Below, piece after piece: positions 12,063-13,205 of a stretch of 64,000 bases of DNA. Made by a program: the position numbers and the translations under genes. Below the pieces are notes generated by a model. It saw nothing but the letters and a program-made list of their open reading frames with translations. It ran no database searches and was not told where the DNA came from. This stretch comes from Streptomyces actinomycinicus. Lineage in GTDB: Bacteria; Actinomycetota; Actinomycetes; Streptomycetales; Streptomycetaceae. Every line of letters starts with the position of its first letter. Within the stretch, counting starts at the first letter, position 1. The DNA is taken from NCBI RefSeq assembly GCF_016741775.1, contig NZ_JAERRK010000001.1, positions 310,001 through 374,000 on the forward strand, given 5' to 3'.

Positions 12063-13205
12063 GTGACCGCCGGACACGAGGGCGCACGCGGCGCCGGTGG
12101 CGGGGAGTACGGCGGCATGGACGCCCTGATGGCCGCGATCACCGGCGACCCCCTGCCGGAGGAGGCCCGGCGTGACGCCGCGTTCCTCGCCGACCACCGG
12201 TCGGCGCAGGCCGACGTCGCGGTGCTGCGGGGGCAACTCGCCTGGATGGCGGAGGCGCTGACGGGCGAGCTTGGGGAGACCGGCGAGCCTGGCGGTACCG
12301 GCAAGATCCGCGAGACCGGCGAGACTGGCAGTACTGGCGGTACTGGCGGTACTGGCAGTACCGGCAGTACCGGCAGTACCGGCAGTACCGGCAGTACCGG
12401 TGAGACGGGCGAGACCGGGGAGACCCGGGAGACCGGCGAGATCGGCGAGGCCCACGAGGCCTACGAGGCCCACGAGGCCCGCAAGACCGCGGAGAGCGGC
12501 GAGACCGGCGAGATCGGCGAGAGCGGTGGGTCGGGGGAGAAGAGGGGGCCGGTGAACAGGCCGGGGTCCGGTGTCGCCGGGCCCGCCGTGCCCGGTGCCG
12601 GCCCGCCGCAGTCGGCCTCCGCCCGGCGCATCCGCAGCCGTACCCGTCCCGCGGGGGCGGGCAGGCCGCCGCGGCCGGGTGGGCCCCCGCGTGCCCTGCG
12701 TGTCGCGCTGGGCACACTCGCCGGGGCCGCGGCCTTCTCGCTGGCCCTCGGGTTCGGCTGGCTGGTCAGCCTGAACGGCATGGGCGGGGCCGACACCGAC
12801 AGCGGGGCGGCGTCGGCCAAGAGCGCCGGCGACGCCGGGCGCGAGGTGGCCGGGGACCCCGGGCGGCCGGCGGAACCGGAACGCGAGCTGGCCTGCTCCC
12901 GGCTGGTGGTGGAGGGCACGGTGGCGAAGGTGGAGCGGCAGCCGGGTTCCTCCCGGAGCCGCGTCACGCTGACGGTGATCCGCTCCTACAAGCCCGCGCA
13001 CGGCCCGGCGGAGGCCGGCTTCCTGCTCGACGCCGGCGCGGCTCCGGCGCCACGCGCGGGACAGCACGTCCTCGTCGCGGTGCGGCAGGGCCGGCAGAGC
13101 GCGAGCCTGTGGGCCGTCGGCGATTCCCGGGTGGCCGGCAACCGCGCCTGGATCACCGGCGCCCTGCCCGGCTCCCGGCACCTGACCTGCCCTTCCGGCA
13201 CCTGA
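12063..13205 (+). CDS. one-TM protein with collagen-like linker, putative anti-sigma factor
   Basis: The 380-aa protein starts with about 65 residues that could hold a small sigma-binding domain ([20 protein letters not shown]). Then come about 85 residues of Gly-x-Thr/Gly-x-x triplets (68-154), a basic Pro-rich stretch, one membrane helix at about 211-236, and an outer domain of about 140 residues with two Cys ([11 protein letters not shown] and HLTCPSG). Its GTG start follows the sigma stop by 2 nt. Position and topology suggest a membrane anti-sigma factor, but no classical HxxxCxxC zinc motif is seen. The coding triplet repeat and the repeat array that begins inside the 3' end are both unusual. 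Confidence 0.7.
12327..12398 (+). repeat. 9-bp coding tandem repeat (Gly-Ser-Thr)
   Basis: Eight consecutive 9-bp units (GGCAGTACC or GGCGGTACT variants) encode Gly-Ser-Thr or Gly-Gly-Thr. Flanking degenerate units extend the Gly-x-x pattern from about 12264 to 12524. Because the unit is a multiple of three, copy-number change would alter linker length without a frameshift. Confidence 0.85.

Follow-up and report, generated by a model that had tools for sequence, protein, structure and literature searches.

Introduction

Pairs of ECF sigma factors and membrane anti-sigma factors are assigned to class I (RseA, RsiW, RskA), class II (CnrY) and class III (RsbN, from Streptomyces) (PMC7406223, PMC8103513). 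A hallmark of ECF (group IV) sigma factors is a promoter under their own control, with AAC in its -35 and CGT in its -10 element (PMC8103513), and about 56% of class I anti-sigma domains carry an Hx3Cx2C zinc motif (PMC7406223).

The locus analysed here lies in a stretch of 64,000 nucleotides of Streptomyces actinomycinicus, hereafter the window. It shares with the known pairs a two-domain sigma factor, an adjacent, co-oriented partner gene and an AAC/CGT-type promoter, and the partner protein has the layout of known ECF anti-sigma factors, with an N-terminal helical domain, a single membrane helix and an extracytoplasmic domain. It differs from them in a core of about 50 aa that contains no Cys and has no informative profile match; the family to which it belongs differs furthermore in a predicted NTR-like OB-barrel ectodomain and in strong drift of linker length, and its sigma binding is putative. 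An ECF sigma factor with a membrane anti-sigma factor is a known kind of system, and what would set this one apart are the predicted NTR-like sensor, sensor-only paralogs and lipoprotein regulon. No paper on the partner protein was found among open-licence PMC papers.

We consider it likely that the partner is a membrane anti-sigma factor with an NTR-like sensor, an envelope-lipoprotein regulon, its own ECF-type promoter and a drifting disordered tether. The operon, its promoter, the protein layout, the conserved ends and the drifting middle are read from sequence.

Data sets and searches

Relatives were collected by sigma searches. Those from named records, 80 loci, were the best 80 of 189 and are biased to close relatives; the search of whole genomes, in a comparison set of one genome per species, added 15 match rows, the window's own included, which gave 95 loci in all. 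Measurements were done on 84 non-identical members with a recognisable core, window included. Left out of these were the duplicates L088, L090, L092 and L093, the loci cut by contig ends (L022, L025, L049), the truncated L080, and L021, L083 and L101, which had no core match. Alignments A1-A3 comprised 81, 78 and 78 rows, some members being left out. For the reverse linkage test an ectodomain-only profile was run against 121 Streptomycetaceae genomes, with scoring limited to at most 38 candidates in each genome.

The operon and its surroundings

Table 1. Position and basis of the features assigned to the sigma/partner operon in the window.
Feature	Position	Strand	Basis
ECF-type sigma-operon promoter CGAACGTT-N14-CGTC-CTAG; -35 GAAC, 17-bp spacing, -10 CGTC	11470-11499	+	conservation in relatives
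ECF sigma factor gene, 177 aa	11528-12061	+	profile matches
Putative membrane anti-sigma factor gene, 380 aa, GTG start, TGA stop	12063-13205	+	ORF; adjacent partner in relatives
Sigma-proximal helical core, residues 18-67, putative anti-sigma domain	12114-12263	+	family lengths; AlphaFold2
Gly-x-x linker segment, residues 68-163, predicted disordered	12264-12551	+	phase count; pLDDT <50 at 86-162
Five perfect tandem GGCAGTACC copies (Gly-Ser-Thr)	12354-12398	+	unit count
Pro/Arg/Gly-rich positive pre-membrane segment, residues 164-210	12552-12692	+	translation; N-in charge bias
Single transmembrane helix, residues 211-237	12693-12773	+	model helix 211-234; hydropathy peak 219-237
Ectodomain (residues 272-378; C278, C376), predicted as an OB barrel with NTR-like additions	12876-13196	+	model; Foldseek
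Second tandem array, period 20 (60), about 10 copies	13175-13379	+	Tandem Repeats Finder; 3' ends

The sigma protein matched Sigma70_r4 (60.5 bits, cut-off 24.1), Sigma70_ECF (29, cut-off 21.1) and TIGR02937 (74.2, cut-off 42.9), and Sigma70_r2 slightly below its cut-off (22.5 against 24 bits). The partner gene starts one base past the sigma stop codon. Its limits stand as the first-pass annotation gave them, and so does its coupling to the ECF sigma gene: among the 95 sigma loci (window and four duplicates included), 91 had a complete adjacent partner, three were cut by a contig end and one was truncated, and the gap was one base in most. The partner is thus adjacent to its cognate ECF sigma gene, as anti-sigma factors are. 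Nearly all relatives found were Streptomyces. In the truncated locus, L080, the partner ends at 66 aa, directly past the core, beside an intact sigma gene.

The linkage was also seen from the side of the ectodomain, whose profile gave 21 match rows (20 genes in 17 genomes, own included), all 21 in a locus with an upstream sigma gene of the same family; this result is partly dependent on the former one, as the profile was made from sigma-linked partners and at least three of the genomes, own included, had already been seen.

Upstream of the sigma gene, a divergent ORF on the other strand (10035-11054) was read by eye as aspartate-semialdehyde dehydrogenase. A possible counterpart is SCO3613 of S. 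coelicolor, which lies beside the gene for this enzyme, as the window sigma gene appears to. SCO3613 is named as a sigma factor in two papers (PMC9739823, PMC12175524), and no papers were found for SCO3612, or for SCO3614 together with this enzyme, among open-licence PMC papers. Relatives also conserve a TGTGACGTACG block at 11352-11366, ahead of the sigma gene. On the other side of the operon, a sortase-like and a secreted-protein-like ORF (names given by eye) occupy 13420-14675 on the minus strand; in several printed relatives the sequence directly 3' of the operon differs from these ORFs.

The second tandem array, absent from the first-pass annotation, is built of a 20-bp unit and a 60-bp super-unit; it begins in the last codons of the partner gene, includes its stop and extends into the intergenic region. 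None of the ten relatives inspected at the 3' end showed the 20-bp unit, and some array lies downstream of the gene in 10 of the 84 members, window's included.

An AAC/CGT-type promoter is conserved upstream of the sigma operon. Of 88 upstream rows (window counted twice), 74 carry GAAC-N16-18-CGTC between -80 and -35 relative to the sigma start, with a spacing of 17 in all 76 sites, and 10 carry one elsewhere (-230 to -81). Nine of the 14 rows lacking the site have the longer motif farther upstream, probably owing to a sigma start set too far inside the gene. In the 8.8 Mb window genome the form GAACGTTTC-N11-13-CGTC has a single occurrence, and across 81 Streptomyces genomes the fuller motif gave 42 matches in 31 genomes, the backward control giving 1. 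In L070, the same motif precedes an apparent second sigma gene.

Constant ends and a variable middle

Across the 84 members the core has a median length of 50 aa (sd 1.4), and the ectodomain, counted from its first Cys, a median of 101.5 aa (range 97-249), the longest being that of L047, from an inserted repeat. Linkers range from 19 to 164 aa and N-terminal extensions from 5 to 153 aa. Two Cys follow the membrane helix in 84/84 members, and net positive charge is greater before than after this helix, likewise in 84/84. This N-in charge bias supports the earlier placement of the linker on the cytosolic side and, along with the structure model, the single membrane helix and cytoplasmic N-terminus. 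Both L047, with 90-bp repeats, and L119 carry a long Gly/Ser/Thr-rich insertion within the ectodomain, so even the sensor tolerates expansion.

Tandem arrays of at least 2.8 copies were found in 18 N-terminal extensions, 17 linkers, three post-membrane segments, three ectodomains and one core, and the period is a multiple of 3 in 50 of the 53 coding arrays. Linker arrays exceed chance: 17/84 were observed, whereas 20 codon-shuffled versions averaged 3.6 and never exceeded 6. For N-terminal extensions the figures were 16/45 observed and a mean of 1.3/45 in codon-shuffled controls, and the sigma genes, taken as comparison, have arrays in 6/87, all at one common site. The repeated units are lineage-specific, with TGEAGTGEAAGA-type units in L007, TGAED in L011, TEAEG in L015, PQEPV/A in L012 and ERT in L118.

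The length variation that the first-pass annotation suggested as possible between strains is borne out, among relatives, by the range of linkers and, most clearly, by L098 and L099, the ectodomains of which are 87% identical and the linkers 164 and 46 aa, that is 118 aa apart. The N-terminal extensions of L009 and L010 (93% ectodomain identity) differ by 59 aa. Rapid change is not universal: in the 10 closest pairs, with at least 85% ectodomain identity, the median difference was 3.5 aa for the N-terminal extension and 2 aa for the linker. Neutral drift of the linker is suggested by its length, with most of the closest pairs differing little.

A predicted NTR-like ectodomain

The NTR fold is best known from animal extracellular proteins. 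Modelled alone, the ectodomain reached pLDDT 92.8 and pTM 0.85, and all 12 Foldseek matches against PDB at E<=0.001 were NTR-type chains, namely PCOLCE1, meteorin or meteorin-like, TIMP-1, complement C3 or C4 and agrin (PCOLCE1 NTR at E 1.4e-5). The structural match to NTR-type domains (agrin NtA, meteorin NTR, PCOLCE1 NTR, TIMP, complement C345C) extends over the whole predicted ectodomain. With VIA-align 2, for which the usual best Z of unmatched models is 7 to 8, agrin NtA (1jb3) scored Z 8.9 (rmsd 3.1 A, 100 aligned residues) and RecO Z 7.5 over 70 residues; other OB folds are thus close.

Sequence profiles gave less. Neither PF01759 nor PF00965 was among the families for 81 full members (E<=0.1) or 78 ectodomains (E<=10), or matched anything in the window genome at E<=1. 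Against PDB, the ectodomain profile returned four matches at chance level (E 0.11-0.95), one of them NTR (meteorin-like 7tlw, E 0.95). Pfam DUF4131 and TOBE_2, both OB folds, matched one or two ectodomains weakly. TIMP/PCOLCE-type NTR domains have three conserved disulfides, which the two Cys after the membrane helix in every member do not provide. Set against animal NTR domains, the ectodomain is bacterial, has two cysteines and no Pfam NTR/TIMP match, and its likeness to them is structural and predicted. As a prediction the OB barrel is firm, and the NTR label is likely, both on the basis of models. By title and abstract opening, no paper on a bacterial NTR domain was found among open-licence PMC papers.

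Candidate regulon and sensor-only paralogs

Twenty of the 42 motif sites were read, having been picked by eye in favour of sites away from known operon copies. Six of them stand before DUF6174-like lipoprotein genes, spread over five genomes (L161, L163, L164, L165, L170, L175), and two before related genes of lipoprotein type (L168, L174). One each precedes a gene for a DUF4349 lipoprotein (L169), for a short protein resembling a lipoprotein (L166) and for an acyltransferase-like protein (L173), one has no clear gene behind it (L171), and the remaining eight lead to sigma genes of the same family or its paralogs. Among three proteins scanned with Pfam, that of L164 matched DUF6174 (54.6 bits, cut-off 23.8), that of L169 matched DUF4349 (228.5 bits) and that of L174 had no match at E<=0.1.

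A Pfam search for DUF6174 identified 11 genes (L181-L191) in 10 of the 81 Streptomyces genomes, and GAAC-N17-CGTC lies upstream of 10 of the 11, the exception being L188, in a count made without shuffled control. All 10 genomes fall among the 31 motif genomes (hypergeometric 2.4e-5), a co-occurrence that is partly circular because some motif matches are the DUF6174 promoters, and the genomes also share ancestry. By their promoters, the DUF6174 lipoprotein genes are candidate regulon members. No papers on DUF6174 were found among open-licence PMC papers.

The window genome itself has no DUF6174 gene by Pfam model search. A one-mismatch promoter scan gave 6 sites against 4 in the backward control, and the five outside the operon are all inside open frames of at least 150 codons, which has little meaning at such GC. 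Exact and one-mismatch scans revealed no convincing target in this genome beyond its own operon, and the regulon claim therefore rests on other species.

Two members have a second promoter copy directly behind the partner gene (L007:4649-5275, L008:4631-5287), preceding a protein of 178 and 181 aa, respectively, with a membrane helix and an ectodomain of the same kind and without the core. In L115 and L116, from another Streptomycetaceae genus, a second ectodomain gene after the partner encodes 154 aa with a lipobox-like LAGC and no core. Free sensor copies are thus membrane-anchored in S. spinosus and S. olivaceoviridis and lipoprotein-like in the two genomes of the other genus.

The helical core and anti-sigma identity

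The AlphaFold2 model of the window protein has core helices at residues 21-27, 33-36 and 39-67, with pLDDT block means of 82-96 over residues 21-70; the yardstick for class I is a three-helix bundle followed by a fourth, sigma-2-binding helix. Three natural variants without most of the core (L021, L101, L114) retain, by eye, its last helix, which may be the sigma contact. Residues 18-67 contain no Cys and hence no Hx3Cx2C zinc motif, which is not obligatory for the class.

Neither the 81 full members nor the 78 cores had an informative Pfam match; the core profile found a single PDB match, at chance level (E 0.81), and the full alignment matched nothing in PDB at E<=10. The NCBIfam "anti-sigma factor" model NF052375 was found at E<=0.1 in 28 of the 81 members, the best E being 7.1e-7. 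Single scans of eight members gave four matches, the best of which, at 20.6 bits against a cut-off of 100, extends over core, linker and membrane helix jointly and may therefore owe its score to composition. The window protein had no match at E<=1, and NF052375 is weak support for anti-sigma identity.

The partner might instead be an output or helper of the sigma factor, a membrane-anchored NTR-like protein merely co-transcribed with it and without an anti-sigma role. Such a role would suit the occurrence of sensor-only paralogs under the same promoter in two species, and none of the known anti-sigma domains was matched above cut-off. We nevertheless regard it as improbable, given the tight spacing to the sigma gene, the anti-sigma-like layout of the partner and its conserved helical core on the cytosolic side, which is missing from the sensor-only paralogs.

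The Gly-x-x segment is very probably not a collagen module

Between the cytoplasmic N-terminus and the membrane helix, the first-pass annotation had described about 85 residues of collagen-like Gly-x-x triplets. The segment exists but is interrupted. Over residues 68-163, Gly occupies the first position in 24 of 32 triplets, the second in five and the third in none, and unbroken runs cover residues 68-82 (5 triplets), 86-121 (12) and 146-160 (5). The perfect 9-bp repeats it reported are present in part of the segment as tandem GGCAGTACC, the only unit searched; Tandem Repeats Finder gave a degenerate 9-bp array at 12276-12526 (27.9 copies, 77% matches).

A functional collagen-like element, which would trimerise the anti-sigma factor in the cytosol or have its length selected for sigma capture, has in its favour the Gly phase and a match to Pfam Collagen (PF01391) at E 2.9e-5. 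The same match, however, reaches 24.2 bits, below the curated cut-off of 27.2; Pro occurs in two of the 32 triplets (GEP and the final RGP), and the model has low confidence for the segment. The long unbroken Gly-x-y run with Pro-rich x and y positions that marks collagen-like proteins is absent, the longest run being 12 triplets. Elsewhere in the family the repeats are not of Gly-x-x type, or the linker is as short as 19 aa. A collagen function was rejected on account of the Pfam score, the lengths of the runs, the Pro content and the repeats of relatives, which are unrelated, and we hold it to be very unlikely; the Gly-x-Thr stretch is not a collagen module. With bacterial collagen-like proteins (Scl1/SclA, PF01391) the window protein shares Gly-x-x periodicity and weak profile matches, and it differs from them in its cytosolic side, short interrupted runs, near absence of Pro and scores under cut-offs. 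Four weak matches to plasmid records were confined wholly or mostly to the repeat part of the protein, and the one record inspected carries no annotation.

Runs of at least five Gly-x-x triplets occur in 8 of the 84 members, and within the linker in two of these; together with the different repeats of other lineages, they make the Gly-x-Thr segment one local outcome of a general habit. The suggestion that repeat number tunes tether length is unsupported, since members with 19-aa linkers retain the same core and ectodomain. The linker is probably a lineage-specific, neutral, disordered tether. Among open-licence PMC papers, none pairs a collagen-like segment with an anti-sigma factor by title or abstract opening, and for an anti-sigma factor with tandem repeat or disorder in the context of Streptomyces ECF nothing was found but a Cupriavidus paper.

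An error of assembly or sequencing behind the repeat count, as a draft genome of 106 contigs and a degenerate array of about 250 bp might invite one to suppose, is scarcely credible, given that the array is mostly degenerate, not identical, and in frame, and that linker arrays recur in members sequenced by many projects.

Proposed mechanism

The membrane anti-sigma reading would work as follows. The sigma/anti-sigma operon would be autoregulated from its own ECF-type promoter, and the core would hold the sigma factor in the cytosol, linked by a disordered tether of about 150 residues to the single membrane helix. Outside, the NTR-like OB-fold domain would sense an envelope signal, upon which the sigma factor would be freed and transcribe its own operon. 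In other Streptomyces, promoter matches point to further putative targets of the freed sigma factor: the DUF6174 lipoprotein genes, to which two species would add a sensor-domain-only paralog. Such paralogs may capture ligand or provide feedback. Tentatively, and with rather less than even confidence, we propose that an NTR/TIMP-like sensor outside the cell controls the ECF sigma factor, with a regulon of envelope lipoproteins and, in some species, of free sensor copies acting as ligand sinks in negative feedback.

The Gly-x-Thr stretch would be one of many lineage-specific repeat expansions in disordered segments, arising by slippage in GC-rich DNA and presumably tolerated because only the two conserved ends matter. 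The tether would need only to span from membrane to sigma factor, so that its length and composition may drift.

Significance

A collagen-like linker is in itself of low interest, and an eye-catching repeat of this sort can be plain drift in a disordered tether. Attention shifts to the conserved parts of the family, the compact sigma-facing helical domain and the barrel-shaped sensor. Moreover, the promoter motif is fairly specific, so that the regulon can be tested directly in ordinary Streptomyces, and the natural tether range, from 19 to 164 aa, is a ready-made experiment on the length of an anti-sigma tether.
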